Shown here: in pieces, positions 914-15,110 of the stretch
Numbering within the stretch: the first letter of the stretch is position 1
Layout of the letters: each line of letters starts with the position of its first letter
Assembly: GCF_003287455.1 (NCBI RefSeq)
Contig: NZ_PRLC01000021.1
Coordinates: forward strand, 1 to 46,658
DNA: 46,658 bases
Direction: 5' to 3'
DNA from: Faecalibacterium hattorii
Lineage (GTDB): Bacteria; Bacillota; Clostridia; Oscillospirales; Ruminococcaceae
Notes under the pieces: model-generated
Database searches by the model: none
What the model saw: the letters and a program-made list of their open reading frames with translations, nothing else
Told to the model about the DNA's origin: nothing
Program-made: the position numbers and the translations under genes

Positions 914-941
914 TTGCAAAGCGGATATTTTGCCGTAAACT
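914..941 (+). promoter_or_regulatory. Candidate sigma-A promoter of the pur leader
   Basis: TTGCAA (914-919) and TAAACT (936-941) are separated by 16 bases. Transcription would start near 948, giving a leader of about 260 nt before purE. Confidence 0.45.
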
Positions 942-1031
942 GTATCTATCAGAAGGATGGTGCGGGTCTGCCGCGCCGTTTGCAGAGGGTGGAAAAGTGA
1001 GTTTCCCATAGAAGTTCGGAGGGGTTACGGA

Positions 1032-1151
1032 ATGCTGGAAATGCTGCATGAGGTCATTCGTCGTCCGCGTGCGGGTGCAGTGCAGGGAACCCGTGTAACT
1101 TTGTGTGGGAACACTTTGCAGATTTCGCAGGAGCAGAAGGCCGTGGTGTAG
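1032..1151 (+). CDS. 39-residue leader peptide upstream of purE
   Basis: A short frame starts at ATG 1032, seven bases after GGAGGGG, a near-ideal ribosome site, and ends at TAG 1149-1151. It begins MLEMLHEVIRRPRAGA and ends EQKAVV. The stop codon overlaps the last stem base and the loop of the purE terminator, so a ribosome finishing this frame would cover the 5' arm of the hairpin. I recognise no domain and no run of a single regulatory codon. It may be a true leader peptide whose translation controls termination, or a chance frame; the ribosome site and the position of the stop favour the former. Confidence 0.55.
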   Translation: MLEMLHEVIRRPRAGAVQGTRVTLCGNTLQISQEQKAVV

Positions 1152-1170
1152 GCACACCACAGCCTTTTTT
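1139..1170 (+). terminator. Intrinsic terminator upstream of purE
   Basis: GGC (1139-1141) and GTGGTGT (1143-1149) pair with ACACCAC (1154-1160) and GCC (1162-1164), with one internal mismatch and a four-base loop, followed by six T. It lies 42 bases before the purE start and so can only act as an attenuator of the operon. Confidence 0.8.
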
Positions 1171-1211
1171 GTTTGTGTGGACACGGGAAAGAGAAAGAGA
1201 GGCTTCGGAAT

Positions 1212-1712
1212 ATGATTCGTAAAGTTGCTGTGATCATGGGTTCGGACAGTGATTGGCCGGTGGTAAAGGGTGCGTGCAGCCAGCTCAAGGCGCTGGGCAT
1301 CCCCTTTGAGGCGCACATCCTTTCGGCCCACCGCACCCCTGCTGAGGCGGCGGCTTTCGCCAAGAGCGCCAAGGACAACGGCTTCGGCGTCATCCTGTGT
1401 GCGGCGGGCATGGCGGCGCATCTGGCCGGCGCTTTTGCAGCCAACACCACCCTGCCGGTCATCGGCATCCCCATGAAGGGCGGCGCGATGGACGGCATGG
1501 ACGCGCTGCTGGCCACAGTGCAGATGCCCAGCGGCATCCCGGTGGCCACGGTGGCCCTGAACGGCGCGAAGAACGCCGCATGGCTGGCGGCGGAGATCCT
1601 CGCTCTGAGCGACGACGAGCTGGCTGCCAAGCTGACCGACGAGCGCGCCGCGATGGCATGGCAGATCGCCGCCAAGGAACAGAAACTGCAGAAAGAAATT
1701 GAGGAACTCTAA
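1212..1712 (+). CDS. purE: 5-(carboxyamino)imidazole ribonucleotide mutase
   Basis: PurE, 166 residues, interconverts carboxylated forms of AIR to give CAIR in de novo purine synthesis. The start is ATG 1212 (MIRKVAVIMGSDSDWPV); GAGAGG lies just upstream. Visible motifs are GSDSDW for phosphate and substrate binding, SAHRTP, and PVIGIPMKGGAMDGMDALL followed by QMPSGIPVATVALNGAKNAA, all typical of the small bacterial class I enzyme. No purK is next to it, as it usually is in enterobacteria. The stop TAA overlaps the purF ATG by one base (TAATG), so the two are translationally coupled. It is the first gene after the attenuator. Confidence 0.95.
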   Translation: MIRKVAVIMGSDSDWPVVKGACSQLKALGIPFEAHILSAHRTPAEAAAFAKSAKDNGFGVILCAAGMAAHLAGAFAANTTLPVIGIPMKGGAMDGMDALLATVQMPSGIPVATVALNGAKNAAWLAAEILALSDDELAAKLTDERAAMAWQIAAKEQKLQKEIEEL

Positions 1713-3190
1713 TGTCTGATTTTGCATATCCGCTTCACGAAGAGTGCGGCGTTTTTGGCATCTATGACCGCGCGGGCACCGAGGATGTGGCGGCTGCCGC
1801 CTACTCGGCGCTGTACGCGCTGCAGCACCGCGGGCAGGAGAGCTGCGGCATCGCGGTGAACGAGGACGGCGTTATCACCGGCCACCGGGACCTCGGCCTT
1901 GTGAACGAGGTGTTCACCCCGGCGGTGCTGGCCAGTATTTCCAGCCCGGCAGCCCACATGGCCACCGGCCACGTCCGCTACGCAACGGCGGGCAGCCGGG
2001 TGCGGGCCAACGCCCAGCCCATGATCGTCCGGCACGGGCGGGGCACCATGGCCCTGTGCCACAACGGCAACCTGACCAACGCCTTGGAGCTGCGCCGCCA
2101 GCTGGAAAATGAGGGCGCCATCTTCCACGGCTCCTCCGATACCGAAGTCATCTGCTACCTCGTCACCCGGAACCGGCTGCGGATGGGCAGCATCGAGACG
2201 GCAATCAGCAAGACCATGGATGTTTTACAGGGAGCCTACAGCCTTGTTATCATGTCGTCCACCAAGCTCATCGCGGTGCGGGACCCCCGCGGCTACCGGC
2301 CCCTGTGCATCGGCGCGCTGCCCGGCGGCGGCTACGTCTTCGCCAGCGAGAGCTGCGCGCTGGACGCCGCCGGAGCGACCCTGCTGCGGGACGTGGAGCC
2401 CGGCGAGATCGTCGTGGTGGATGCCCGCAGCGGTGAGCTGCGGAGCATCAAGGATCACTGCGGCCGGAAGGATACCCAGATGTGCGTCTTCGAGTACATC
2501 TATTTCTCCCGCCCGGACAGCATCATTGAGGGCTGCTCGGTCCACGAGGCACGCAAACAGGCGGGCCGGTTCCTTGCACAGGAACACCCCGTGGAGGCCG
2601 ATGTGGTCATCGGCGTGCCGGATTCCGGTCTGGACGCCGCGCTGGGCTACTCCGAGGAGAGCGGCATCCCCTACGGCATCGGCTTCATCAAGAACAAATA
2701 CATCGGGCGCACCTTCATTCAGGGCAGCCAGAAGCAGCGCGAGAACAGCGTGCGCATCAAGCTGAACGTGGTGTCCAGCACCGTGAAGGGCAAACGGGTG
2801 GTGCTGGTGGATGACTCCATCGTGCGCGGCACCACCTCCGCCCGCATCATCAAGCTGCTGCGGGACGCCGGGGCGGCGGAGGTCCACTTCCGCGTGTCGG
2901 CACCCCCCTTCAAATACCCCTGCTACTTCGGCACCGACATCCCCGACCAGAAGCTGCTGGTGGCCACGGGCCGCACCGTGGCCCAGATCAACGAGATCAT
3001 CGGGGCGGACACGCTGGGCTACCTTTCCACGGAGCATGTGGTCCAGCTGGCCAAGGGTGCCAACTGCGGCTTCTGCACCGCCTGCTTCACCGGGGAATAT
3101 GCCGTGAAGCCCGACGAGGTGCTTTCGACCGATATTCACGAACGCCACCTGAACGACCGTCCCAAGGACGAGAAAAAGTTAGGAGAGTAA
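1712..3190 (+). CDS. purF: Amidophosphoribosyltransferase
   Basis: PurF (492 residues) makes 5-phosphoribosylamine from PRPP and glutamine, the committed step. The N-terminus MSDFAYPLHEEC fits the Bacillus-type enzyme: a short propeptide would be removed to expose Cys12 as the glutamine amidotransferase nucleophile. The glutaminase domain (HRGQES, GHVRYAT, CHNGNL) is followed by the phosphoribosyltransferase domain with the PRPP loop VVLVDDSIVRGTTS near residue 362. A late NCGFCTAC motif (about 450) agrees with the 4Fe-4S form of the family. The end of the gene contains the AGGAGA ribosome site of purM. Feedback by nucleotides is family knowledge. Confidence 0.97.
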   Translation: MSDFAYPLHEECGVFGIYDRAGTEDVAAAAYSALYALQHRGQESCGIAVNEDGVITGHRDLGLVNEVFTPAVLASISSPAAHMATGHVRYATAGSRVRANAQPMIVRHGRGTMALCHNGNLTNALELRRQLENEGAIFHGSSDTEVICYLVTRNRLRMGSIETAISKTMDVLQGAYSLVIMSSTKLIAVRDPRGYRPLCIGALPGGGYVFASESCALDAAGATLLRDVEPGEIVVVDARSGELRSIKDHCGRKDTQMCVFEYIYFSRPDSIIEGCSVHEARKQAGRFLAQEHPVEADVVIGVPDSGLDAALGYSEESGIPYGIGFIKNKYIGRTFIQGSQKQRENSVRIKLNVVSSTVKGKRVVLVDDSIVRGTTSARIIKLLRDAGAAEVHFRVSAPPFKYPCYFGTDIPDQKLLVATGRTVAQINEIIGADTLGYLSTEHVVQLAKGANCGFCTACFTGEYAVKPDEVLSTDIHERHLNDRPKDEKKLGE

Positions 3191-3194
3191 GACC

Positions 3195-4241
3195 ATGGAA
3201 AAGAGCTATTCGGAAAGTTATGCAGCCGCCGGTGTGGATATCACCGCCGGTTACCGCTCTGTTGAACTGATGAAGCAGTATGTCGCCCGCACCATGAACG
3301 AGCACTGCATCGGCGGTCTTGGCGGCTTCGGCGGCCTGTTCGAGCTGGACTGCACGGGTTACAAGCACCCCGTCCTGATCTCCGGCACCGACGGCGTGGG
3401 CACCAAGCTGAAGATCGCCATGATCATGGACAAGCACGATACCATCGGCATTGACTGCGTGGCTATGTGCGTCAACGATGTCATCTGCGCCGGTGCCAAG
3501 CCGCTGGTCTTCCTCGACTACATCGCATGCGGCCGGAATCTCCCCGAAAAGATCGCCGAGATCGTCAAGGGCGTGGCTGAGGGCTGCGTTCAGGCCGACT
3601 GCTCCCTCGTGGGCGGCGAGACGGCTGAGCATCCGGGCATGATGCCGGAGGACGAATACGATCTGGCCGGTTTCACCGTGGGCGTCGTGGACAAGGAGAA
3701 GATCCTGAACAACGACACCATGAAGTCCGGCGACGTCATCCTCGCCCTGCCCTCCACCGGTGTGCACTCCAATGGTTTCTCGCTGGTGCGCAAGATCTTT
3801 GATATCGACAAGGACCCCGACGTGTTGAAGACTGCCCCGGCAGAGCTTTCCGGCAAGACGCTGGGCGAGGCTCTGCTGGCCCCCACCAAGATCTACGTCA
3901 AGCCGGTGCTCAAGGTGCTGGAAGAGGTGGACGTCAAGGGCATCTCCCACATCACCGGCGGCGGTTTCTACGAGAACATCCCCCGCAGCCTGAAGAAGGG
4001 ATGCTGCGCCCGCATCAAGAAAGCGGACGTCCGCACCCCGGCCCTCTTCCACCTGATGCAGAAGGTGGGCAATATCTCCGAGCACGACATGTTCAATACC
4101 TTCAACATGGGCGTCGGCATGGTGCTGACCGTGCCCGCCCAGCAGGCCGACAAGGCACTGGACATCCTCCACGCCAACGGTGAGCCGGAGGCTTACAAGC
4201 TGGGCGTCATCGCAGAGGGCGAGGGGGTCGAACTGTGCTGA
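3195..4241 (+). CDS. purM: Phosphoribosylformylglycinamidine cyclo-ligase (AIR synthetase)
   Basis: PurM, 348 residues, closes the imidazole ring of FGAM using ATP to give AIR. The protein shows the family pattern: LLGG-like GLGGFGGLF near the N-terminus, GTDGVGTKLKIA, the metal/ATP segment DCVAMCVNDVICAGA, the GGETAEHPGMM motif, LPSTGVHSNGFSLVR, and ITGGGFYENIPR. ATG 3195 is four bases after the purF stop with AGGAGA inside the purF end. The 3' end overlaps purN by seven bases. Length is normal for the family. Confidence 0.97.
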   Translation: MEKSYSESYAAAGVDITAGYRSVELMKQYVARTMNEHCIGGLGGFGGLFELDCTGYKHPVLISGTDGVGTKLKIAMIMDKHDTIGIDCVAMCVNDVICAGAKPLVFLDYIACGRNLPEKIAEIVKGVAEGCVQADCSLVGGETAEHPGMMPEDEYDLAGFTVGVVDKEKILNNDTMKSGDVILALPSTGVHSNGFSLVRKIFDIDKDPDVLKTAPAELSGKTLGEALLAPTKIYVKPVLKVLEEVDVKGISHITGGGFYENIPRSLKKGCCARIKKADVRTPALFHLMQKVGNISEHDMFNTFNMGVGMVLTVPAQQADKALDILHANGEPEAYKLGVIAEGEGVELC

Positions 4242-4831
4242 ACATTGCCGTGTTAGTGTCCGGCGGCGGCACCAATTTACAGGCCCTGCTGGACAGCGAG
4301 GCCCGCGGGGAGAACCCCAACGGCAGGATCACGCTGGTGGTGGCCTCCAAGCCCGGCGTCTATGCGCTGGAGCGGGCCGCCAAGGCCGGGGTGGAAGGCG
4401 TGGTGGTCCGCCGCAGGGACTACGAAAGCAGCGAAGATTTCGACGCCGCTCTGCTGAACCAGTTGAAAACCCACCACATCGACCTTGTGGTGCTGGCCGG
4501 GTTCCTCTCCGTGCTGGGGCCCAGCGTCATTGCGGCCTACCCGCGCCGCATCCTGAATGTCCACCCGGCGCTCATCCCGTCCTTCTGCGGGCCGGGCATG
4601 TACGGTCTGCGCCCCCACGAAGCGGCGCTGGCCCGCGGCTGCAAGGTGACCGGTGCCACCGTCCACTTTGTGAATGAGGAGTGCGACGGCGGGCCCATCC
4701 TGCTGCAAAAGGCCGTGGACATCCTGCCCGGCGACACCCCCGAAGTGTTGCAGAAGCGGGTGATGGAACAGGCGGAGTGGAAGCTCCTGCCCAAGGCCGT
4801 TGCCATGGTTTGCAGTGGAGAGATCGAATAA
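4235..4831 (+). CDS. purN: Phosphoribosylglycinamide formyltransferase
   Basis: PurN, 198 residues, formylates GAR with 10-formyltetrahydrofolate. The start is GTG 4235 inside GTGCTGA, overlapping the purM stop, so coupling to purM is expected. Motifs seen: LVSGGGTNLQALLD for phosphate binding, VVLAGFLSVLGP, the ILNVHPALIPSF segment with the catalytic Asn and His, GATVHFVNEECDGGPI with the catalytic Asp. Length and order match the family. Downstream is a short repeat and then purO. Confidence 0.96.
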   Translation: MLNIAVLVSGGGTNLQALLDSEARGENPNGRITLVVASKPGVYALERAAKAGVEGVVVRRRDYESSEDFDAALLNQLKTHHIDLVVLAGFLSVLGPSVIAAYPRRILNVHPALIPSFCGPGMYGLRPHEAALARGCKVTGATVHFVNEECDGGPILLQKAVDILPGDTPEVLQKRVMEQAEWKLLPKAVAMVCSGEIE

Positions 4832-4885
4832 CCTCTCAGTCGAGCCTTCGGCTCGCCAGCTCCCCTAATAGGGGAGCCCTTGGCA
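4832..4885. repeat. Short intergenic repeat with hairpin (purN-purO)
   Basis: The stretch contains GAGCCTTCGGCTC and AGCTCCCCTAATAGGGGAGC hairpins and ends in CCCTTGGCA, the module boundary of the larger repeats elsewhere in the window. It interrupts an otherwise tight operon and may act as an mRNA-processing or stability hairpin. Confidence 0.55.
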
Positions 4886-4961
4886 GGACGGCAAACAAGT
4901 GCGAAAAACAAAAAATGTCGGGCTCCGCTGTGAGACGAAGCGTGTGCTAAAGGAGAACCTT

Positions 4962-5756
4962 ATGGAGAAAATCAATCTGAACGAGTATCTGGCATCCAAC
5001 GAGTACCCCGGCCGCGGCATCGCGGTGGCGATGGCCCCGGATGGGCGGCAGATGTTCATCGGCTATTTCATCATGGGCCGCAGCGAGAACAGCCGCAACC
5101 GGGTGTTCGACCCCATCCCGGAGCGGGGCGGCATCTGCACCATGGCCGCCGACCCCGACAAGCTGGAAGACCCCAGCCTCATCATCTATAACCCCGTGCT
5201 GACGCTGGGCAGGACCCAGATCGTGACCAACGGCGACCAGACCGACACCATCTACGACCTCATGAGCCGGGGCAAGAGCTTTGCGGACGCTTTGCGCACC
5301 CGCACCTTTGAGCCGGACGGCCCCAACTACACCCCCCGCATCTCGGCGGTGGTGTACGAGGACGGCAGCTACCAGATGAGCATCCTGAAATCGGCTGACG
5401 GCAACGGCGACAGCGTCCAGCGCTATTTCTTCGATTACCCGCAGCCCGTGGCCGGTGAGGGTCATTTCATCAGCACCTACAAGCACAACGGCAGCCCCAT
5501 CCCCAGCTTTGAGGGGGAGCCGCTCCGTTTTGCGTGCCCCCGCACCATCGGCGATTTCGCCCACGGCCTGTGGCAGAACCTGAACCCCGATAACAAGGTC
5601 AGCCTGTTCGCCCGCGTCATCGACCTTGACACCGGCGAGACCGGCGACATGATCTTCAACAAATACGACGCCGTCTATAACGACGACGAAGACCCCGAAG
5701 AACCCGCCCTGCTGCCCGAAGAGCTGGAGGCTCTGGCCGCAGAGAAACAGAACTAA
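4962..5756 (+). CDS. purO: IMP cyclohydrolase, PurO (archaeal-type) family
   Basis: 264-residue protein of the PurO/COG3363 family, which closes FAICAR to IMP and is unrelated to the cyclohydrolase half of bifunctional PurH. The N-terminus NEYPGRGIAVAMAPDG, followed by YFIMGRSENSRNRVF, is the family hallmark; later blocks include NYTPRISAVVYEDG and PSFEGEPLRF. ATG 4962 is set by AAGGAG seven bases before it; a longer frame back to 4899 has no ribosome site. It lies 12 bases before the stand-alone AICAR formyltransferase, so the two replace a fused PurH. The acidic tail (DDEDPEEPALLPEELEALAA) looks disordered. Confidence 0.9.
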   Translation: MEKINLNEYLASNEYPGRGIAVAMAPDGRQMFIGYFIMGRSENSRNRVFDPIPERGGICTMAADPDKLEDPSLIIYNPVLTLGRTQIVTNGDQTDTIYDLMSRGKSFADALRTRTFEPDGPNYTPRISAVVYEDGSYQMSILKSADGNGDSVQRYFFDYPQPVAGEGHFISTYKHNGSPIPSFEGEPLRFACPRTIGDFAHGLWQNLNPDNKVSLFARVIDLDTGETGDMIFNKYDAVYNDDEDPEEPALLPEELEALAAEKQN

Positions 5757-5768
5757 GGAGGAAGACCC

Positions 5769-6950
5769 ATGAACGAACTGGCATTGAAGTACGGCTGCAA
5801 CCCCAACCAGAAGCCCAGCCGCATTTATATGGAAGATGGCTCCGACCTGCCCGTGACCGTTCTGAACGGCAAGCCCGGCTACATCAATTTTCTGGATGCC
5901 CTCAACTCCATCCAACTGGTCAAGGAGCTGAAAGCGGCCTGCGGCCAGCCCGCAGCGGCCTCCTTCAAGCATGTGTCCCCGGCGGGCGCAGCGCTGGGTC
6001 TGCCCCTGACCGAGGTGGAGCGGAAGATGTACCACATCGCCCCGGACGCTGTGCTCTCCCCGCTGGCGTGCGCCTACGCCCGCGCCCGCGGTGCCGACCG
6101 GATGTCGTCCTTCGGCGATTGGATCGCCCTGTCCGATGTCTGCGACGTGCCCACCGCAAAGCTCATCCAGCACGAAGTGTCGGACGGCATCATCGCCCCC
6201 GGCTATGAGCCGGAAGCACTGGCGATCCTTGCCGGCAAGAAGAAGGGCAACTACAACGTGGTGGCCATCGACCCGGACTACAAGCCCAACCCCGTGGAGC
6301 ACAAGCAGGTGTACGGCATCACCTTCGAGCAGGGCCGCAACGAGCTGACCATCAACGCCGACACCATGCTGACCAACTGGGTCACCGAGAACAAGGCCGT
6401 CTCCGACGAGCAGAAGCGTGATCTGGTCCTCGCCCTCATCACCCTGAAGTACACCCAGTCCAACAGTGTCTGCTACGCCTACAACGGCCAGACCATCGGC
6501 GTGGGCGCGGGCCAGCAGAGCCGCATCCACTGCACCCGCCTCGCGGGCCAGAAGGCCGACAACTGGCAGCTGCGCCACATGGACAAGGTGCTGAACCTGC
6601 CCTTCCGGGACGATGTCTCGAAGCCCAACCGCGACAACGCCATCGACGTTTACATCGGCGACACGCCGGAGGATGTCATCGGCGACGACGTCTGGGCCGA
6701 GACCTTCACCGAGCAGCCCGCCCCCCTGACGGCCGAGGAAAAGAAAGCCTACCTCAGCCAGATCACCGGCGTGTCCCTCGGCTCGGATGCGTTCTTCCCC
6801 TTCGGCGACAACATCGAGCGGGCCCGCCGCTCCGGCGTGACCGCCATCGTCCAGCCCGGCGGCTCCATCCGCGACCAGCAGGTCATCGACACCTGCAATA
6901 AATACAACATCGCGATGGCCTTCTGCGGCATCCGGTTGTTCCATCACTAA
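5769..6950 (+). CDS. purH: AICAR formyltransferase (stand-alone, PurH C-domain type)
   Basis: 393 residues; formylates AICAR with 10-formyl-THF to FAICAR, the step before ring closure. It matches only the transformylase part of PurH: LKYGCNPNQKPS at the N-terminus, SFKHVSPAGAA with the catalytic Lys-His pair near residue 66, SNSVCYAYNGQTIGVGAGQQSR, SDAFFPFGDNIERA and the C-terminal PGGSIRDQQVIDTCN / MAFCGIRLFHH. The MGS-like cyclohydrolase domain expected at the N-terminus of bifunctional PurH is absent; that job is given to PurO just upstream. AGGAGG lies 6 bases before ATG 5769. Confidence 0.93.
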   Translation: MNELALKYGCNPNQKPSRIYMEDGSDLPVTVLNGKPGYINFLDALNSIQLVKELKAACGQPAAASFKHVSPAGAALGLPLTEVERKMYHIAPDAVLSPLACAYARARGADRMSSFGDWIALSDVCDVPTAKLIQHEVSDGIIAPGYEPEALAILAGKKKGNYNVVAIDPDYKPNPVEHKQVYGITFEQGRNELTINADTMLTNWVTENKAVSDEQKRDLVLALITLKYTQSNSVCYAYNGQTIGVGAGQQSRIHCTRLAGQKADNWQLRHMDKVLNLPFRDDVSKPNRDNAIDVYIGDTPEDVIGDDVWAETFTEQPAPLTAEEKKAYLSQITGVSLGSDAFFPFGDNIERARRSGVTAIVQPGGSIRDQQVIDTCNKYNIAMAFCGIRLFHH

Positions 6951-7011
6951 AAATGCTTCCTTGCAGGAACATGCGGTTTCTGTCGCATTTGGCATATCGT
7001 AGGCCCGCTTG

Positions 7012-7360
7012 AAACGCCCTCTCCCCACCGCAAGCACCCGCTAAACCGGGGCCCAGCGGCCACGGCGGCGGGCTTGCCCTCTCCGTCATCGCTTCGCGAT
7101 GCCACCTCTCCCAAAGTGAGAGGCCTTGGCAGTCCGTAAAGTTCCCAGTTTATACTTTACGCCCTGCTGTCGCAAGGGGAGCCGAAGGCGCTGCGCTCAG
7201 ACTTCACGCCTTTGCCAAGGGCTCCCACTTTGGGGGAGCTGGCGCGAAGCGCCTGAGAGGGCGAGCCCGGCAGAGGGAAGGCTGCGCCTTTGTTTAGCAC
7301 AGCGTACCGCAAGGCAGAGAGGGCAAGCCCACGGACGGGTTTAGCGGGGGTCTAGGATAG
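7012..7360. repeat. Dispersed intergenic repeat, copy 2 (purH-purD)
   Basis: The 455 base gap after purH has no gene. It carries the full repeat: a CCTCTCC...GAGAGG module, an internal core bounded by CCTTGGCA (7124-7131) and TGCCAAGG (7213-7220), a GGCGCGAAGCGCC hairpin and the GCCTTTGTTTAGCACAGCG tail. Core orientation here is the common one, shared with copies at 8.9, 22.5 and 46.5 kb. Confidence 0.85.
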
Positions 7361-7405
7361 AAAAATGAAACCGTATGCTCAGCAGAAAGGTTGGGAGGTT
7401 ATAAA

Positions 7406-8707
7406 ATGTCTAAAAAAATACTGGTCGTCGGCGGCGGCGGGCGGGAGCACGCCATCATCAAGGCGCTGAAGAAGAGTCCGGACTGCGGCGAGATCTGGTG
7501 CGCGCCGGGCAACGGCGGCATCGGCTACGACGCCAAGTGCAAGAACATCAAGGCCACCGATGTGGAGGCCATGGTGGCCTTTGCGGCGGAGGAAAAATTC
7601 GATTATGTGGTGGTGGCGCAGGACGACCCGCTGGCACTGGGCATGGTGGATGCGCTGGCGAAGGTCGGCATCCCGGCCTTCGGCCCGGACAAGGCGGCTG
7701 CCCGCATCGAGGCCTCCAAGGTCTTCTCCAAAGACCTGATGAAGAAGTACGGCATCCCTACCGCCAAGTATGAGACCTTCGACGACCCCGCCAAGGTCAT
7801 GGACTACATCAAGGCCGAGGGCAAGTACCCGGTGGTCATCAAGGCGGACGGTCTGGCGCTGGGCAAGGGCGTGCTCATCTGCGAGGACGAGCAGCAAGCC
7901 GCTGACGGCGTCAAGGAGATCATGCTGGACAAGAAGTTCGGTGCGTCCGGCAACCACGTAGTCGTGGAGGAGTTCCTCACCGGCCCGGAGGTCAGCGTGC
8001 TGAGCTTTACCGACGGCAAGGTGGTCAAGCCCATGGTGTCGTCCATGGATCACAAGCGGGCCAACGACCACGACACCGGCCTGAACACCGGCGGCATGGG
8101 CACCGTGGCCCCGAACCCCTACTACACCCCGGCCATCGCCGCCGAGTGCATGGAGAAAATTTTCCTGCCCACCATCAAGGCCATGAACGCCGAGGGCTGC
8201 CCCTTCAAGGGCTGCCTTTACTTCGGCCTGATGCTGACCCCGGACGGCCCCAAGGTCATCGAGTACAACTGCCGCTTCGGCGACCCGGAGACGCAGGTGG
8301 TGCTGCCGCTGCTGGAGAGCGACCTGCTCAAGATCATGACCGCCTGCACCGAAGGCACGCTGGCCGACACCGAGGTGAAGTTCTCGGACGGCGCGGCGGC
8401 GTGCGTCATTCTGGCGTCCGGCGGCTACCCGGTCAGCTATGAAAAGGGCAAGCCCATCTCCGGCCTGACCGACGGCCAGCTGGCAGGGGAGGCCAACATC
8501 ACGGTCTACCACTCCGGCACCGCCATCCGGGAGGACGGCACCCTCGTCACCAACGGCGGCCGTGTGCTGGGCGTCACCGCCACGGCTCCCCGCCTGACCG
8601 CCGCCATCACCCAAGCCTATGCCGCCGCCGAGAAGATTCACTTCGAGAAGCTGCATAAGCGGACGGATATCGGCCTGCGGGCGCTGAAGGCGATTGCGGA
8701 GCAATAA
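7406..8707 (+). CDS. purD: Phosphoribosylamine-glycine ligase (GAR synthetase)
   Basis: PurD, 433 residues, joins glycine to phosphoribosylamine with ATP. The start is ATG 7406 (MSKKILVVGGGGREHAI) after GGGAGG; an earlier TTG at 7391 would overlap that ribosome site. ATP-grasp features are visible: N-terminal GGGGREHAIIKAL, PVVIKADGLALGKGV, VVVEEFLTGPEVSVLSF, and the metal-binding YNCRFGDPETQVVLPLL. It is preceded and followed by large repeats, so it may be transcribed separately or by readthrough from the upstream genes. Confidence 0.97.
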   Translation: MSKKILVVGGGGREHAIIKALKKSPDCGEIWCAPGNGGIGYDAKCKNIKATDVEAMVAFAAEEKFDYVVVAQDDPLALGMVDALAKVGIPAFGPDKAAARIEASKVFSKDLMKKYGIPTAKYETFDDPAKVMDYIKAEGKYPVVIKADGLALGKGVLICEDEQQAADGVKEIMLDKKFGASGNHVVVEEFLTGPEVSVLSFTDGKVVKPMVSSMDHKRANDHDTGLNTGGMGTVAPNPYYTPAIAAECMEKIFLPTIKAMNAEGCPFKGCLYFGLMLTPDGPKVIEYNCRFGDPETQVVLPLLESDLLKIMTACTEGTLADTEVKFSDGAAACVILASGGYPVSYEKGKPISGLTDGQLAGEANITVYHSGTAIREDGTLVTNGGRVLGVTATAPRLTAAITQAYAAAEKIHFEKLHKRTDIGLRALKAIAEQ

Positions 8708-8744
8708 CAAAGGCCTGATATCCAAACTGAGGTGCAGCCTTGCC

Positions 8745-9175
8745 GGAAGCGGGCTTGCCATCGCCCCGGTTTAGCTGGCGCGAATGATGGGGCAGACTTC
8801 CGAAAGGCTTGATCTAAACTTACGCGGTGCGTTCTTGTCAGCGGGCTTGCCCTCTCCGTCATCGCTTGCGCGATGCCACCTCTCCCAAAGTGAGAGGCCT
8901 TGGCAGTCCGCCAAGTTTCCGGTTTTATACTTTACGCCCTGCTGCCGCAAGGGGAGCCGTCAGGCGCTGCGCGGAGACTTTCCGCCTTTGCCAAGGGCTC
9001 CCACTTTGGGGGAGCTGGCGCGAAGCGCCTGAGAGGGCAAGCCCGCTGCCGTGGCCGCTGAGCCCCAGTTTAGCGGGTGCTTTCGGTAGGCCGAGGGCAA
9101 GCCCGGCGGAGGGAAGGCTGCACCTTTGTTTAGCACAGCGTACCGCAAGGCAGAGAGGGCAAGCCCGTGGGCAGT
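8745..9175. repeat. Dispersed intergenic repeat, copy 3 (purD-purL)
   Basis: The 496 base gap is almost wholly repeat. It contains the CTTCCGAAAGGCTTGATC module, the GCATCGC hairpin, the core between CCTTGGCA (8898-8905) and TGCCAAGG (8989-8996), and two tail modules. No gene is seen. Confidence 0.85.
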
Positions 9176-9203
9176 TGAATTTGAACATATGGAGGAAAAT
9201 CCT

Positions 9204-12200
9204 ATGGTATATCGTATCTACGTTGAAAAGAAACCCGGCTTCGATGTGGAAGCCGAGGGGCTGAAGAAGGAGCTGGTGAGTCTGCTGGGGGTAGCGGGCC
9301 TGACGGGGCTGCGGCTGCTGAACCGGTACGACGTCGAGGGCATCGACGAGGCGCTGTTTGAGCAGTGCGCCTCCACGGTGTTCAGCGAGCCGCCGGTGGA
9401 CAACACCTACGCCGAGCTGCCCCAGTCCGAGGGCGTGTCCTTCGCGGTGGAGTACCTGCCCGGCCAGTTCGACCAGCGGGCCGATTCCGCCGCCGAGTGC
9501 ATCCAGCTCATCAGCCAAGGCGAGCGCCCGCTGGTGCGCTCCGCCAAGGTCTACCTGCTGCAGGGCAGCCTGACCGAGGCCGAGGTGGCCGAGATCAAAA
9601 AGTACGTCATCAACCCGGTGGAGGCCCGCGAAGCCTCGCTGGAACCCAAGACCACCCTCAAGATGGAGTACCCCGTCCCCACGGCGGTGAAGGTGCTGGA
9701 CGGCTTCAACCAGCTGGACGAGGAGGGCCTGAAGGACTTCATCGCAAAGCAGGGCCTTGCCATGGACCTCGGCGACATCAAGTTCTGTCAGGAGTACTTC
9801 CGCAGTGAGAAGCGGGACCCCACCATCACCGAGATCAAGATGATCGACACCTATTGGTCCGATCACTGCCGCCACACCACCTTCGGCACCATTCTGGATG
9901 ATGTCCAGATCGACGACGAGGTGGTTCAGGCTGCGTTCGACCGCTATATGGCCATGCGGAAGGACCTTGGCCGGGAGAACAAGCCCCGCTGCATGATGGA
10001 TCTTGCCACCATCGGTGCCAAGGAGCTGAAGAAGCAGGGCATCCTGAAGAACCTCGACGAGTCCGAGGAGATCAACGCCTGCACCGTCAAGATCAAGTGC
10101 GACGTCAACGGCAAGGACGAGGATTGGCTGTTCCTGTTCAAGAACGAGACCCACAACCACCCCACCGAGATCGAACCCTTCGGCGGCGCGGCTACCTGCA
10201 TCGGCGGTGCCATCCGCGACCCGCTGTCCGGCCGCAGCTACGTCTATCAGGCCATGCGCGTGACCGGCGCGGGCGACCCGCTCAAGCCCGTCAGCGAGAC
10301 GCTGCCCGGCAAGCTGCCCCAGCGCAAGCTGGTGACCACTGCCGCCGCCGGTTACTCCTCCTACGGCAACCAGATCGGCCTTGCCACCGGGCAGGTGGAT
10401 GAGATCTACCACCCCGGCTATGTGGCCAAGCGGATGGAGATCGGCGCAGTGGTGGGTGCAACGCCCGCTTCCCACGTCCGCCGGGAGTGCCCGGCCCCCG
10501 GTGATGTCATCGTCCTGCTGGGCGGCCGCACCGGCCGTGACGGCATCGGCGGCGCTACCGGCTCCTCCAAGGCCCACAACCTTGAGAGCCTCGACCACTG
10601 CGGTGCCGAGGTCCAGAAGGGCAACGCCCCCATCGAGCGCAAGCTCCAGCGCCTGTTCCGCCGCGAGGATGCGTGCAAGATGATCAAGCGCTGCAACGAC
10701 TTCGGCGCGGGCGGCGTGTCCGTGGCCATCGGTGAGCTGGCGGACGGTCTGTACATCGACCTGAACAAGGTTACCAAGAAATACGACGGCCTCGACGGCA
10801 CCGAGCTGGCCATCAGCGAGAGCCAAGAGCGCATGGCCGTGGCCCTTGCCCCGGAGGACGTGGACAAGTTCATCGCCATTGCCACCGAAGAGAATCTGGA
10901 GGCTACCCCTGTGGCGAAAGTCACCGAGGAGAAGCGCCTGAACATGGTGTGGAACGGCGTGTCCATCGTGAACATCAGCCGCGAGTTCCTGAACTCCAAC
11001 GGTGCCGAGAAGCACCAGAACGTCCACATCGAGAAGGGGACGGTCTGGCAGCCCCAGTGGTCCGGCATCACCTTTGCCCACAAGATGAAGGCGATGGTGG
11101 GCGACCTGAACGTGTGCAGCAAGAAGGGCCTTGCGGAGCGGTTCGACTCCACCATCGGCGCGGCCACCGTGCTGATGCCCTTCGGCGGCGCCTACCAGCT
11201 GACCCCGCAGAACGCCATGGTGGCAAAGCTGCCTGTGGACGGCGAGACCAGCACCTGCTCCGGCATGGCATGGGGCTACAACCCCTATCTGATGAGCGCC
11301 AACCAGTACGTCGGCGCCCGGATGGCTGTGGTGGAGAGCGTGACCAAGCTGGTGGCCACCGGCTTCCGGTATGAGGACGCTTACCTGACCTTCCAAGAGT
11401 ACTTCGAGCGTTTAGGCTCCAAGCCTGAACGCTGGGGCAAGCCGCTGGCCGCTCTGCTGGGCGCACTGGATGCCCAGATTGGCCTCGGCATCGGCTCCAT
11501 CGGCGGCAAGGACAGCATGTCCGGCTCCTTCGAGCAGCTGGATGTGCCCCCGACGCTGGTCTCCTTCGCCACTGCCATCGGCAAGGCCAACCGCGTGGTC
11601 TCCACCGAGTTCAAGAAGCCGGAAAGCACCGTCGTGCTCATCCGGCCCATTCTGGACCCGGAGACCGGCTGCCCCAACTTCTTCTCCCTGAAGGCCAACT
11701 ACAAGATGGTCGAGCAGATGATCGAAGAGGGCATGGTGGCGGCGGCCTGTTCCGTGGGCTACGGCGGCTTGGCCGAGGCCCTGTTCAAGATGGGTCTGGG
11801 CAACCGCATCGGCTTCAAGATGATGGCCGACAAGTCCACCGCCGAGATGTTCGCGCCCATGTACGGTTCCATCGTGCTGGAAATGGTCTCCGATTCGCCC
11901 GCCGGTGAGCTGCTGGGCGAGACCACCAAGGAGTACACCTTCGAGTGCTGCGGTGAGAAGATGGATATGGCCGAGCTGCAGGAGATCTGGGAAGCCAAGC
12001 TGGAGCCGGTGTACCCCTACCGCAAGGCCGGGGCCAACGTAGAACCCATCGACGGCAAGCTGGCGGCTCCCGCAGCCGCGCCCAAGATCGGCATCGCAAA
12101 GCCGAAGGTCATCATCCCGGTCTTCCCCGGCACCAACTGCGAGTACGACACCGCCAAGGCCTTTGCACGGGCCGGTGCAGACCCTGAGATTCTGGTCATC

Positions 12201-12899
12201 CGCAACCTGACCCCGGCGGACGTTACCGCCAGCTGCGAGGCACTGGTGAAGGCCATTGGGGAGAGCCAGATCGTCATGCTGCCCGGCGGCTTCTCCGGCG
12301 GCGACGAGCCGGACGGCAGCGCCAAGTTCATCGCCTCCTTCTTCCGCAGCCCCGCCGTCACCGAGGCGGTTCGCGAGCTGCTGCACCAGCGCGACGGCCT
12401 GATGCTGGGCATCTGCAACGGTTTCCAAGCCCTCATCAAGCTGGGTCTGGTGCCCTACGGCGATATCCGCCCCATCACGGCCTATGATCCGACCCTGACC
12501 TTCAACACCATCGGCCGCCACCAGAGTATGCTGGTGCGCACCCGCATCGCCTCCACCGGCAGCCCGTGGCTGTCCAAGTGCGCGGTGGGCGACGAGCACA
12601 CCGTGGCCATCAGCCACGGCGAGGGCCGTTTCGTGGCCCCGCAGAATGTGCTGGACGAGCTGGTGAAGAACGGACAGGTCGCCACCCAGTACGTTGATCT
12701 GGATGGTCAGCCCACCATGGACCAGAGCTACAACCCCAACGGCTCGCTGCTGGCCATCGAGGGCATCACCAGCCCCGACGGCCGTGTCTTCGGCAAGATG
12801 GGCCACTCCGAGCGCAGCGGGGAGTACCTGTACAAGAACGTCACCGGCGATAAATATCAGCCGATCTTTGAAGGCGGCGTAGACTATTTCAAGATTTGA
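9204..12899 (+). CDS. purL: Phosphoribosylformylglycinamidine synthase, single-chain
   Basis: 1231 residues; converts FGAR to FGAM with ATP and glutamine. It is the large single-chain form: an N-terminal PurS-like region, two AIR-synthetase-like halves (first with WSDHCRHTTF and ETHNHPTEIEPFGGAATCIGGAIRD, second with GIGSIGGKDSMSGSF), and a C-terminal glutaminase with FPGTNCEYD, MLPGGFSGGDE, the nucleophile Cys in GICNGFQAL and a late HGEGRF with the catalytic His. ATG 9204 is preceded by GGAGG. Many low-GC Firmicutes instead use separate PurS, PurQ and PurL, so the fusion is a useful lineage marker. Confidence 0.96.
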   Translation: MVYRIYVEKKPGFDVEAEGLKKELVSLLGVAGLTGLRLLNRYDVEGIDEALFEQCASTVFSEPPVDNTYAELPQSEGVSFAVEYLPGQFDQRADSAAECIQLISQGERPLVRSAKVYLLQGSLTEAEVAEIKKYVINPVEAREASLEPKTTLKMEYPVPTAVKVLDGFNQLDEEGLKDFIAKQGLAMDLGDIKFCQEYFRSEKRDPTITEIKMIDTYWSDHCRHTTFGTILDDVQIDDEVVQAAFDRYMAMRKDLGRENKPRCMMDLATIGAKELKKQGILKNLDESEEINACTVKIKCDVNGKDEDWLFLFKNETHNHPTEIEPFGGAATCIGGAIRDPLSGRSYVYQAMRVTGAGDPLKPVSETLPGKLPQRKLVTTAAAGYSSYGNQIGLATGQVDEIYHPGYVAKRMEIGAVVGATPASHVRRECPAPGDVIVLLGGRTGRDGIGGATGSSKAHNLESLDHCGAEVQKGNAPIERKLQRLFRREDACKMIKRCNDFGAGGVSVAIGELADGLYIDLNKVTKKYDGLDGTELAISESQERMAVALAPEDVDKFIAIATEENLEATPVAKVTEEKRLNMVWNGVSIVNISREFLNSNGAEKHQNVHIEKGTVWQPQWSGITFAHKMKAMVGDLNVCSKKGLAERFDSTIGAATVLMPFGGAYQLTPQNAMVAKLPVDGETSTCSGMAWGYNPYLMSANQYVGARMAVVESVTKLVATGFRYEDAYLTFQEYFERLGSKPERWGKPLAALLGALDAQIGLGIGSIGGKDSMSGSFEQLDVPPTLVSFATAIGKANRVVSTEFKKPESTVVLIRPILDPETGCPNFFSLKANYKMVEQMIEEGMVAAACSVGYGGLAEALFKMGLGNRIGFKMMADKSTAEMFAPMYGSIVLEMVSDSPAGELLGETTKEYTFECCGEKMDMAELQEIWEAKLEPVYPYRKAGANVEPIDGKLAAPAAAPKIGIAKPKVIIPVFPGTNCEYDTAKAFARAGADPEILVIRNLTPADVTASCEALVKAIGESQIVMLPGGFSGGDEPDGSAKFIASFFRSPAVTEAVRELLHQRDGLMLGICNGFQALIKLGLVPYGDIRPITAYDPTLTFNTIGRHQSMLVRTRIASTGSPWLSKCAVGDEHTVAISHGEGRFVAPQNVLDELVKNGQVATQYVDLDGQPTMDQSYNPNGSLLAIEGITSPDGRVFGKMGHSERSGEYLYKNVTGDKYQPIFEGGVDYFKI

Positions 12900-12914
12900 T
12901 GGTATGATATAAGA

Positions 12915-13022
12915 AAACTCCTTCCGTCACGGCTGACGCCGTGCCACCTCCCTCAGGGAGGGAGGCTCAAGGCCCCCTCTGTGAGGGGGCTGTCGCCGGA
13001 GGCGACTGGGGGAGTGATTTCA
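12915..13022. repeat. Short intergenic repeats (purL-purB)
   Basis: Two hairpin modules differ from the larger family: one around CACGGCTGACGCCGTG with CCTCCCTCAGGGAGGGAGG, one around CCCCCTCTGTGAGGGGG with GTCGCCGGAGGCGAC. They fill the gap up to the purB ribosome site CAGGAGG. Confidence 0.6.
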
Positions 13023-13036
13023 GGAGGAAACCTTAA

Positions 13037-14482
13037 ATGTCTCAGCATGACCGCTATATCAGCCCGTTTTCGACCCGCTATTCCTCCGACGAGATGCAGT
13101 ACATCTTCTCGGACGACAACAAGTTCCGCACGTGGCGCCGCCTGTGGGTGGCGCTGGCCCGCGCGGAGATGAAGCAGGGCCTGACCAACATCACCCCCGA
13201 AATGGTGGCAGAGCTGGAAGCCCACGTGGATGACATCAACTACGATGTGGCCATCGCCCGCGAAAAGCTGGTGCGCCACGACGTGATGAGCCACGTCTAC
13301 GCCTACGGCCAGCAGTGCCCCAAGGCCGCCGGCATCATCCATCTGGGTGCTACCAGCTGCTATGTGGGCGACAACACCGACATCATCGTGATGCGGCAGG
13401 GGCTGGAGCTCATCCGCAAAAAGCTGATCGGCGTGCTGGCAAAGCTGGCCCGCTTCGCCGAGGAGTACAAGGACATGCCCTGCATGGCTTACACCCACTG
13501 CCAGCCCGCCCAGCCCACCACCGTGGGCAAGCGCGCGACCCTGTGGGCCAACGAGCTGGTGATGGACCTTGCCGAGATCGACCACCGCCTCGCGACGCTG
13601 CAGCTCCGCGGCGTCAAGGGCACCACCGGCACACAGGCCTCCTTTATGGAGCTGTTCAAGGGCGATGCGGACAAGATCCGCGCCGTGGATGCGTCCATTG
13701 CGTCGGAGATGGGCTTCGACCCCGAAGCCGTCATCCCCGTGTCCGGCCAGACCTACAGCCGCAAGGTGGATTCCTTCATCCTCAACGCGCTGGCGGGCAT
13801 CGCCCAGAGCTGCATGAAGTTCGCCACCGACCTGCGTCTGCTGGCCAACTTCAAGGAGATGGAAGAGCCCTTTGAGAAAAACCAGATCGGCTCCTCCGCC
13901 ATGCCCTATAAGCGCAACCCCATGCGGTGCGAGCGCATCTGCGCCCTCGCCCGCTACCTGATGGTGGATGTGCTGAACCCCAGCTTCACCACCGGCACCC
14001 AGTGGTTCGAGCGCACGCTGGACGACAGCGCCAACAAGCGCGTCGCCATGGCGGAGGGCTTCCTCGCGGCGGACGCCATCCTGAACATCATGCTCAACGT
14101 CACCGACGGCATCGTGGTCTACCCCAAGGTCATCCGCAGCCGCCTGATGGCCGAACTGCCCTTCATGGCCAGCGAGAACATCATGATGCAGGCCGTGGAG
14201 AAGGGCGGCAACCGGCAGGAACTCCACGAGCGTCTGCGCCAGCACGCCATCGCGGCGGGCAAGCAGGTCAAGGAAGAGGGTCTGCCCAACGATATGGTGG
14301 ACCGCATCGCCGCCGACCCGGCTTTCGGCCTGACCAAGGAAGAGATCGTGGCGGGCCTCGTGCCCGAAAACTTCGTGGGCCGCGCTCCCCAGCAGGTCGA
14401 GGAGTTCATCGCCCACATCCTCAAGCCCATCTTTGATGCCAACCCCGATGCCGTGGAGCAGCATGCAAGCTTGAGCGTGTAA
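13037..14482 (+). CDS. purB: Adenylosuccinate lyase
   Basis: PurB, 481 residues, cleaves fumarate from SAICAR (giving AICAR) and from adenylosuccinate (giving AMP). It belongs to the fumarase/aspartase superfamily, shown by the signature SSAMPYKRNP near residue 287, by HLGATSCYVGDN with the conserved substrate-binding block, and by TYSRKVD. ATG 13037 follows CAGGAGG at a normal distance. It is the last purine gene of the cluster and ends before a probable terminator. purC, which makes its substrate, is not in the window. Confidence 0.95.
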   Translation: MSQHDRYISPFSTRYSSDEMQYIFSDDNKFRTWRRLWVALARAEMKQGLTNITPEMVAELEAHVDDINYDVAIAREKLVRHDVMSHVYAYGQQCPKAAGIIHLGATSCYVGDNTDIIVMRQGLELIRKKLIGVLAKLARFAEEYKDMPCMAYTHCQPAQPTTVGKRATLWANELVMDLAEIDHRLATLQLRGVKGTTGTQASFMELFKGDADKIRAVDASIASEMGFDPEAVIPVSGQTYSRKVDSFILNALAGIAQSCMKFATDLRLLANFKEMEEPFEKNQIGSSAMPYKRNPMRCERICALARYLMVDVLNPSFTTGTQWFERTLDDSANKRVAMAEGFLAADAILNIMLNVTDGIVVYPKVIRSRLMAELPFMASENIMMQAVEKGGNRQELHERLRQHAIAAGKQVKEEGLPNDMVDRIAADPAFGLTKEEIVAGLVPENFVGRAPQQVEEFIAHILKPIFDANPDAVEQHASLSV

Positions 14483-14645: not shown

Positions 14646-14885
14646 TCGCCCTCTCAGGCCGCCTAACGGCGTCCAGCTCTCCCAAAGGGAGAGCTTTTTC
14701 GAGAAGGCAAACTTTCCGGTATATCCAAAACCTCTCACTTTGGGAGAGGTGGCATCGCGAAGCGATGACGGAGAGGGCGAGCCCGCTGACAAGAACGCAT
14801 CGCGTCCGTTCAGATCAAGGCTTTCGGAAGTCCGCCCCATCGTAAGCGTCATCTAAACCTACGCCCTGCGCCGCCTCTGCCGGGC
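14646..14885. repeat. 240 bp tandem repeat, first unit
   Basis: This unit and the next are in exact 240-base register, for example TCGCCCTCTCAGGCCGCC at 14646 and 14886. It contains CCTAACGGCGTCCAGCTC, GAGAAGGCAAACTTTCCGG, the CCTCTCACTTTGGGAGAGG hairpin and the CTTTCGGAAGT module. The 702 base gap between purB and rsuA holds these two units, flanking repeat scraps (14600-14645) and no gene. Confidence 0.85.
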
Positions 14886-15110
14886 TCGCCCTCTCAGGCC
14901 GCCTAACGGCGTCCAGCTCCCCCAAAGTGGGAGCTTTTTCGAGAAGGCAAACTTTCCGGTATATCCAAAACCTCTCACTTTGGGAGAGGTGGCATCGCGA
15001 AGCGATGACGGAGAGGGCAAGCCCGCTGACAAGAACGCACCGCGTAAGTTTAGATCAAGGCTTTCGGAAGTCTGCCCCATCGTAAGCGCCAGCTAAACCG
15101 GGGCCTCGCT
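14886..15110. repeat. 240 bp tandem repeat, second unit
   Basis: Second copy of the unit at 14646, diverging only at scattered positions until about 15100, where the copies part company. Its last 110 bases are closer to the copy at the window start (CGCACCGCGTAAGTTTAGAT) than to the first unit, which suggests exchange between copies. Confidence 0.85.

Follow-up and report, generated by a model that had tools for sequence, protein, structure and literature searches.

A leader open reading frame at purE in Faecalibacterium and many relatives through which purine supply may be gauged by a ribosome reaching the polymerase

Introduction

To our knowledge, the control of purine synthesis is known mainly in the form of repressors (PurR) or aptamers. 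In the pyrE attenuator of Escherichia coli, the stop codon of rph lies just before the terminator. In the trp leader, a pause synchronises the polymerase with the ribosome, and TnaC and SpeFL are regulatory arrest peptides. For the E. coli pyrBI operon, excerpts of the published work describe that the polymerase pauses when UTP is scarce and that the coupled ribosome then prevents the terminator hairpin from forming (PMC10135430, PMC5021804). The leader open reading frame (ORF) mgtM of the Salmonella mgtCBR operon is described as sensing ATP, with a conserved adenine stretch and alternative stem-loops (PMC3641672, in excerpt). The bacterial elemental-pause consensus is given as G-10Y-3G-2Y-1G+1 in one such excerpt (PMC8096220), and the elemental-pause motif of the pyrBI leader as G-11G-10Y-1G+1 in another (PMC10135430). 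Among the titles and abstract openings listed in searches of open-access literature, which mostly leaves subscription journals outside, none dealt with a purE leader ORF or a pyrBI-like attenuator for purines.

We analysed a stretch of 46,658 nt of Faecalibacterium-like DNA, hereafter called the window, in which a first-pass annotation had proposed a leader-peptide terminator switch in front of the purine operon that would depend either on translation or on a ligand. The leader was compared with the purE leaders of the genus, of the family and of more distant lineages.

Results

The purE leader in the window

The PurE protein encoded in the window shared 81-93% identity with its counterparts in 30 further genomes of the genus and, among the matches listed, 87-90% identity with Faecalibacterium PurE. 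The pur operon that it heads is complete (Table 1). Positions 4959-6950 encode a separate purO-like IMP cyclohydrolase and a stand-alone AICAR transformylase, with no bifunctional purH; the purO-like model is of the archaeal type, and the match of the operon protein scored under the curated NCBIfam cut-off. A dispersed intergenic repeat was also observed at 18-134, 8771-8950, 14740-14856 and 14980-15096 of the window, and its chance frames translate to sequence resembling MGEVASRSDDGEG or RSSLSEVCPI.

Table 1. Features of the purE leader and operon in the window, and loci carrying a ZTP riboswitch
Feature	Position	Strand	Basis
Promoter, TTGCAA 914-919, 16-nt spacer, TAAACT 936-941 (predicted)	914..941	+	read directly
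5' untranslated stem-loop, 11 bp	955..981	+	MFE fold
Shine-Dalgarno sequence GGAGGGG of leader frame	1018..1024	+	anti-SD duplex energy -12.3 kcal/mol
Leader ORF, 39 codons, ATG 1032, stop TAG 1149-1151	1032..1151	+	read directly; comparison
Pause-consensus site GGN6TGCA, +1 = A1048	1037..1048	+	sequence
Pause-consensus site GGN6TGCA, +1 = A1084	1073..1084	+	sequence
Pause-consensus site GGN6TGTA, +1 = A1097	1086..1097	+	sequence
Intrinsic terminator, hairpin 1138-1165 (-16.6 kcal/mol), T tract 1165-1170	1138..1170	+	fold, terminator scan, covariation
Pause-consensus site GGCCGTGGTGTA in terminator 5' arm, +1 = A1150	1139..1150	+	sequence
purE, first gene of controlled operon	1212..1712	+	TIGR01162, 186.7 bits, cut-off 149.6
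Operon remainder: purF, purM, purN, purO-like, AICAR transformylase (PRK07106), purD, purL, purB	1712..14482	+	NCBIfam
ZTP riboswitch loci L296, L299, L300, L302, L305, L306, L308, L316, L322, L327, L331, L334, L337			

The ribosome site, the 39-codon frame and the intrinsic terminator that had been placed between a promoter and purE could all be read directly in the window. The promoter itself also held up as a prediction: a TTGCAA/TAAACT-type pattern with a 16-nt spacer was kept in 18 of 20 deduplicated genus leaders, and it stands upstream, not downstream, of position 1170, with a transcript start predicted near 948. A simple promoter scan of the window did not report the promoter at 914-941, and a simple terminator scan gave a single match, the purE terminator. 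The hairpins described in the same interval fared unequally, the terminator being conserved and the other two not being kept throughout; counterparts of the 5' untranslated stem-loop occurred in many genus members and were absent, for example, in L121 and L122, whose untranslated leaders are just 29 and 28 nt long. Genus leaders such as L094, L102 and L119 carry a GC-rich 5' stem-loop of varying sequence between promoter and Shine-Dalgarno (SD) sequence.

The stop codon had been described as sitting at the top of the terminator stem. This is so in the window, where the frame reads past the usual stop to a TAG inside the hairpin, with T1149 paired and A1150-G1151 in the loop, and likewise in L110 and L116, whereas in most relatives the stop codon lies at the base of the stem.

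Conservation of frame, stop position and terminator

The DNA preceding purE was gathered from 31 genomes of the genus (30 loci), from 298 genomes of the family (269 of them with PurE; 24 further loci and 60 regions) and, as a third source, from at least 80 contig loci. Similarity and length filtering reduced 197 upstream regions to 155, and a second set from 267 to 203. A terminator hairpin lay within 135 nt of purE in 103 of the 155 regions; the 52 regions of this set and the 64 of the second set in which no hairpin was detected were left out. Leader starts were chosen by SD duplex energy and start-codon type alone. Loci outside the genus were divided into the Rum group, which is the remainder of the window's family together with similar loci, and group O; we take the families concerned to be Ruminococcaceae and Oscillospiraceae.

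In 89 of 103 leaders, the stop codon of the frame fell within -15 to +17 nt of the foot of the terminator hairpin; 20 rounds of dinucleotide shuffling gave a mean of 14.9 and a maximum of 21, although the leaders share ancestry, so that their independence is overstated when they are compared with shuffles. In the other two frames, read from the same starts, only 13 and 15 stops were near the hairpin. Outside Faecalibacterium, 64 of 77 leaders had the stop at the hairpin (11.1 in shuffles), and under a relaxed hairpin rule the stop was in range in 18 of 20 genus, 53 of 70 Rum and 19 of 49 O leaders, the Rum and O labels here resting on PurE similarity. For the motif, spacing and +1 counts below, L036 and L037 (Fournierella) were moved to Rum by hand, whereas L054 was left in group O despite its near-identical leader L198 in the window's family. 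The stop codons were TAA in 58 leaders, TAG in 16 and TGA in 15. Furthermore, over pairs sharing ancestry, to which the pN/pS counts given below also refer, indels were multiples of three in 22 of 27 cases within the frame versus 22 of 174 outside it.

In a chosen set of 16 terminators with distinct 28-nt sequences, 99.4% of the stem cells were paired, and 4 of 11 pairs had changed on both sides; 29 of 500 shuffles reached four pairs and none reached the nine cells. These data indicate conservation across genera of the leader frame, of the place of its stop and of the terminator; the frame and stop first seen in the window recur in the purE leaders of relatives, and the covarying stem is that of the terminator.

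A repeated pause-consensus motif with A at +1

GTGTA occurred in 78 of 155 upstream regions, versus 21 expected. A de novo motif search of the leader DNA of 73 Faecalibacterium and Rum leaders, from which SD and terminator were excluded, yielded GG-N5-GTGYA-N-C with a log-likelihood of 240.7 (50 starts) versus 94-105 for five shuffles (20 starts each). The Rum group alone gave 182.5 versus 80-101 for shuffled sequence, and the G at -10 and TGYA were retained. As a candidate pause signal, this leader motif is the elemental-pause consensus except for A, not G, at +1. In the surroundings of TGYA in non-Faecalibacterium frames, -11 and -10 were the most informative upstream positions (0.19 and 0.20 bits), followed by -6 (0.15 bits). 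The spacing in GG-Nk-TGYA peaked at k=6 in both groups, with 16 and 31 sites in frames (31 being the Rum count) and 25 and 20 in terminators; Rum frames had 23 sites at k=5 and 14 at k=7, and terminators showed further peaks at k=0 and k=12.

At least one GGN6TGYA site was present in 18 of 18 Faecalibacterium leaders and in 37 of 55 Rum leaders, the other 18 having none. The window holds four in its leader and 69 on both strands together (93,316 nt), and the site at 1086-1097 has a counterpart in other genus members that precedes the hairpin by about 40 nt. Copies fall in all three reading frames, and others lie past the stop codon in the arm of the terminator; for 22 of these 43, the +1 base is twelve bases into the hairpin. 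Among the 45 rows of terminator-like hairpins in the window, in which a few hairpins are listed twice, only the hairpin of purE holds a pause-consensus site. Over the 120 nt that precede the frame, GGN6TGYA showed no clear excess (6 versus 2.9; 1 versus 1.1).

The base at +1 was A in 41 of 47 GGN6TGY sites of the 18 Faecalibacterium leaders and in 51 of 78 sites of the 55 Rum leaders, compared with 69 of 345 in a whole-window control. The remaining Rum sites had C (13, above the 4.8 expected by chance), G (10) or T (4), and +1 = C was found at 7 sites versus 1.3 in the 120 nt upstream of genus frames. GG-N6-TGYA with A at +1 is enriched in the leaders and is regarded here as a set of candidate nucleotide-specific pause sites. 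In the group round L014, +1 was G in 7 of 10 sites (17 leaders); six are frame sites, in L014, L029, L031, L058 and L284, and the seventh belongs to the L302 terminator, at a locus with a ZTP riboswitch (in the spacing and +1 counts, group O also includes L302 and L308, both carriers of that riboswitch). The leader of L014, from Candidatus Enterenecus, has a near-identical counterpart in Pseudoflavonifractor (L018). On thin evidence, +1 = G might be taken as GTP sensing in this group.

These counts bear on a different use of the same parts, namely a coupled attenuator in which the pauses merely synchronise polymerase and ribosome and the input is initiation rate, (p)ppGpp or the general translation state. 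Such a device would account for the frame, the stop position, the weak constraint on the peptide and a pause consensus in which +1 has no role, but it leaves the preference for A over the consensus G at +1 unexplained in both groups and does not account for the presence of the leader at a purine operon. We consider it rather unlikely.

The leader peptide

In the frame, pN/pS pooled over near-distinct members was 0.86, versus 0.99 and 0.93 in the other frames. It ranged from 0.37 to 1.21 in 16 small clades and was below 1 in 13 of them; a 17th clade had zero synonymous changes and hence no pN/pS. The leader peptide thus appears at most weakly constrained. When the 31 genus genomes were searched with the window peptide, no convincing second leader site was found: 10 genomes matched at E<=1, and the two best matches outside the window (G014, G012) were those genomes' own purE leaders.

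The presence of a leader ORF together with a terminator would also fit amino-acid attenuation through regulatory codons. However, the longest run of a single residue was at most three in 90 of 90 frames, and no residue was present in all of them. In 54 non-genus peptides, Asp was depleted (27 versus 56 expected), Gln was near expectation (56 versus 47), and Gly was raised (166 versus 116), in part because of the GG of the motif; Lys (107 versus 50) and Cys (124 versus 68) were the most enriched. On composition and residue runs we rejected this explanation, to which we give hardly any credence.

A protein-motif search returned G-[IH]-x-[AV]-[ST] with 212 bits in frame, compared with 193 and 204 in the other frames and 128-153 in shuffles, and the variants QGIRVS, GISASK and YGISAYK were found in distant genera. 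An arrest peptide of the TnaC or SpeFL kind, whose nascent chain would stall the ribosome at or near the stop on a purine-related metabolite, looked strong at first on these grounds, and stalling at the stop would block the hairpin too. It is favoured by the weak in-frame motif G-[IH]-x-[VA]-S, by the residues found at -9 (Gly in 15 of 71 peptides) and at -4 (Lys in 14 of 71), by the clades with pN/pS below 1, and by the distribution of GG-type frame sites over the three frames (16/8/5 and 10/4/2), of which 26 of 45 are in one frame and therefore leave some room for a role of the peptide. On the other hand, the pooled pN/pS differs little between this frame and the other two, the motif scores are nearly equal there, the distance from motif to stop varies among leaders, and copies lie past the stop, in the terminator. 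A DNA-level motif explains the pattern about as well; the frame controls and the copies past the stop place most of the motif signal at the DNA or RNA level. The arrest-peptide reading was set aside as improbable.

Riboswitches and PurR at purE

The window leader gave no Rfam match at gathering score, and at E up to 10 it gave four matches, all far under the gathering scores. Forty leader-ORF loci, 38 of which had the stop in the range given above and two of which (L103 and L170) were taken as leaders by eye, gave zero Rfam family matches. The earlier statement that no known purine-linked riboswitch class is recognisable thus stands for the window leader and for these 40 loci. Likewise, 19 folded leaders shared no structure beyond the terminator, and folding them with and without the 3' arm revealed no common alternative pairing by eye.

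These results also weigh on the idea that the leader contains the aptamer of an undescribed riboswitch. The fold of the window leader is stabler than that of shuffles (z -2.71), and loci of a sister lineage use a ZTP aptamer at this very place, both of which would suit an aptamer; the widely varying sequence and length of the leaders stand against it, as do the missing Rfam matches at gathering scores and the 19 folds with only the terminator in common. We rejected a riboswitch on the Rfam results and on the absence of shared folds, and regard its probability as very low.

A purine riboswitch was found in 2 of the 31 genus genomes, and none was found in the window's own genome, in a search that for most genomes scored only 89 of the first-look candidates. 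PurR_Bsub scored above cut-off in none of the 31 genomes, and the listed matches span only positions 74-239 of the model. In the family of L014, PurE was present in 121 of 150 genomes, and the leader ORF was present at most loci close to L014. Of 19 loci chosen from this sister lineage, 13 had a ZTP riboswitch (RF01750) directly before purE, where the leader ORF would otherwise lie (Table 1); the 19 had been picked from 52 more distant loci (L292-L343) largely for absence of the leader ORF. Since some lineages have a leader ORF without Rfam match and others a ZTP riboswitch, purE appears to be under two kinds of control.

Other purine and pyrimidine loci

No comparable leader was seen by eye at purA (5), pyrB (8) or guaB (6) loci of the genus. 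Near guaB, the window's own genome has an IMPDH RNA (RF02994) in place of a leader ORF; this RNA lies 5' of the IMP dehydrogenase gene (L363, 3185-3295, minus strand), as it does in a relative (L346, 3172-3283, minus strand). A block round CCCRGGCAAGGTGCACGGAAAAGGCTG, for which no Rfam model reached its gathering score, is conserved in the genus within about 100 nt before purA (L219, L223, L226 and L230); the L219 and L230 copies include a GGN6TGCA pause-like site. One of the two purA copies of the window's own genome (L220) follows a seemingly shortened frame that has an internal TGA and resembles, by eye, argininosuccinate synthase, and is itself followed by a copy of aspartate carbamoyltransferase.

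Discussion

The purE leader is very probably a translation-coupled transcription attenuator. Of the two forms in which an undescribed attenuator had been proposed, the translation-dependent one agrees with the conserved frame, stop and terminator, and the ligand-dependent one, which would require an aptamer, found no shared fold among 19 leaders. Comparison of the leaders supports a translated frame and shows a kept geometry of stop and terminator, a weakly constrained peptide and a conserved pause consensus with A at +1. The repeated pause consensus was absent from the earlier reading and suggests how purine level could be the input. We favour, as the somewhat more probable account, an attenuator of the pyrBI/pyrE kind rebuilt for purines; within it, we infer that the polymerase pauses at the sites, that ATP or GTP sets the pause, and in which direction the leader responds.

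According to this proposal, the polymerase would start near 948, transcribe the leader ORF and meet four elemental-pause signals, the last of them in the terminator's 5' arm. To leave a pause, the polymerase would need the next nucleotide: A (ATP) for Faecalibacterium and the rest of its family and, on the thin evidence above, G (GTP) for the L014 group. With ample purine nucleotide, pauses would be short, the polymerase would run ahead of the ribosome, and the hairpin would fold and stop transcription before purE. With scarce purine nucleotide, pauses would be longer, and the ribosome would be at the stop codon at the hairpin as the polymerase enters the T tract, keeping the 5' arm single-stranded so that transcription continues into purE. 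As longer pauses would let the ribosome block the terminator, low ATP would be expected to open purE. If the RNA 3' end at the pause lies eleven bases into the hairpin, the polymerase would be held there as the ribosome approaches; on release, the ribosome would have few codons left to the stop while the polymerase completes the hairpin and the T tract. The general footprint sizes of ribosome and polymerase underlie this proposed geometry. As far as we know, the polymerase in Bacillota is thought to outrun ribosomes, which makes the coupling less certain.

A further reading, which we advance tentatively and with some doubt, is that in gut Clostridia the polymerase itself gauges ATP (Faecalibacterium and its family) or GTP (the L014 group) directly, with repeated pause modules, their +1 base adapted to whichever purine is sensed, replacing PurR and the purine and ZTP riboswitches at purE. 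It is weakened because one of the seven +1 = G sites lies in a ZTP-riboswitch leader.

If the proposal is true, the transcription machinery of common gut bacteria would itself sense the nucleotide pool for purines, as it does for pyrimidines, and the purE leader would be a purine counterpart of pyrBI made of discrete, reusable pause modules. In a gut bacterium and many relatives, purine supply may then be gauged by whether the ribosome reaches the polymerase. The leaders also form a natural collection of candidate elemental pauses in which the +1 base appears selected, so that how far escape from a pause depends on the incoming NTP becomes directly testable in vivo. They are relevant, furthermore, to the question whether ribosome-polymerase coupling exists in Bacillota.

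The nearest known relatives of this leader are pyrBI/pyrE and the ATP-sensing mgtM leader. In Bacillota, polymerase pausing is likewise described in the control of the Bacillus subtilis tlrB and vmlR leaders (PMC12288461, PMC6851288, PMC9226507, in excerpt), but these answer antibiotics, and their pauses are given as NusG-dependent with a TTNTTT motif (PMC12288461). The ZTP riboswitch shares with the leader ORF its position, its operon and a purine-related control, but is an aptamer RNA, whereas the 40 leader-ORF loci had no aptamer match. As in mgtM, coupling to a leader ORF would be combined with proposed pausing, there at adenines, and with a peptide sequence that is not conserved; in mgtM, however, the excerpt describes high ATP as raising expression via alternative stem-loops (PMC3641672), whereas here expression would be expected to rise at low purine, through a ribosome that occludes the terminator directly. 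The purE leader places its stop codon near the hairpin. E. coli pyrE similarly has a stop codon a few nucleotides ahead of the hairpin, but there the ORF is a full upstream gene and the operon is not a purine operon, in contrast to the dedicated short leader of purE. The likeness to E. coli pyrBI, with its leader ORF pyrL, covers a short leader ORF, an intrinsic terminator and the elemental-pause motif with which the excerpt describes pyrBI P1 (PMC10135430); it would further include a ribosome that keeps the terminator open and polymerase pausing proposed to be set by an NTP of the operon's own product. Unlike pyrBI, the leader described here would respond to a purine in place of UTP and belongs to a Bacillota host, and instead of a U-rich leader (49% of pyrL; PMC10135430, in excerpt) it carries discrete copies of a pause consensus, one of them inside the terminator.
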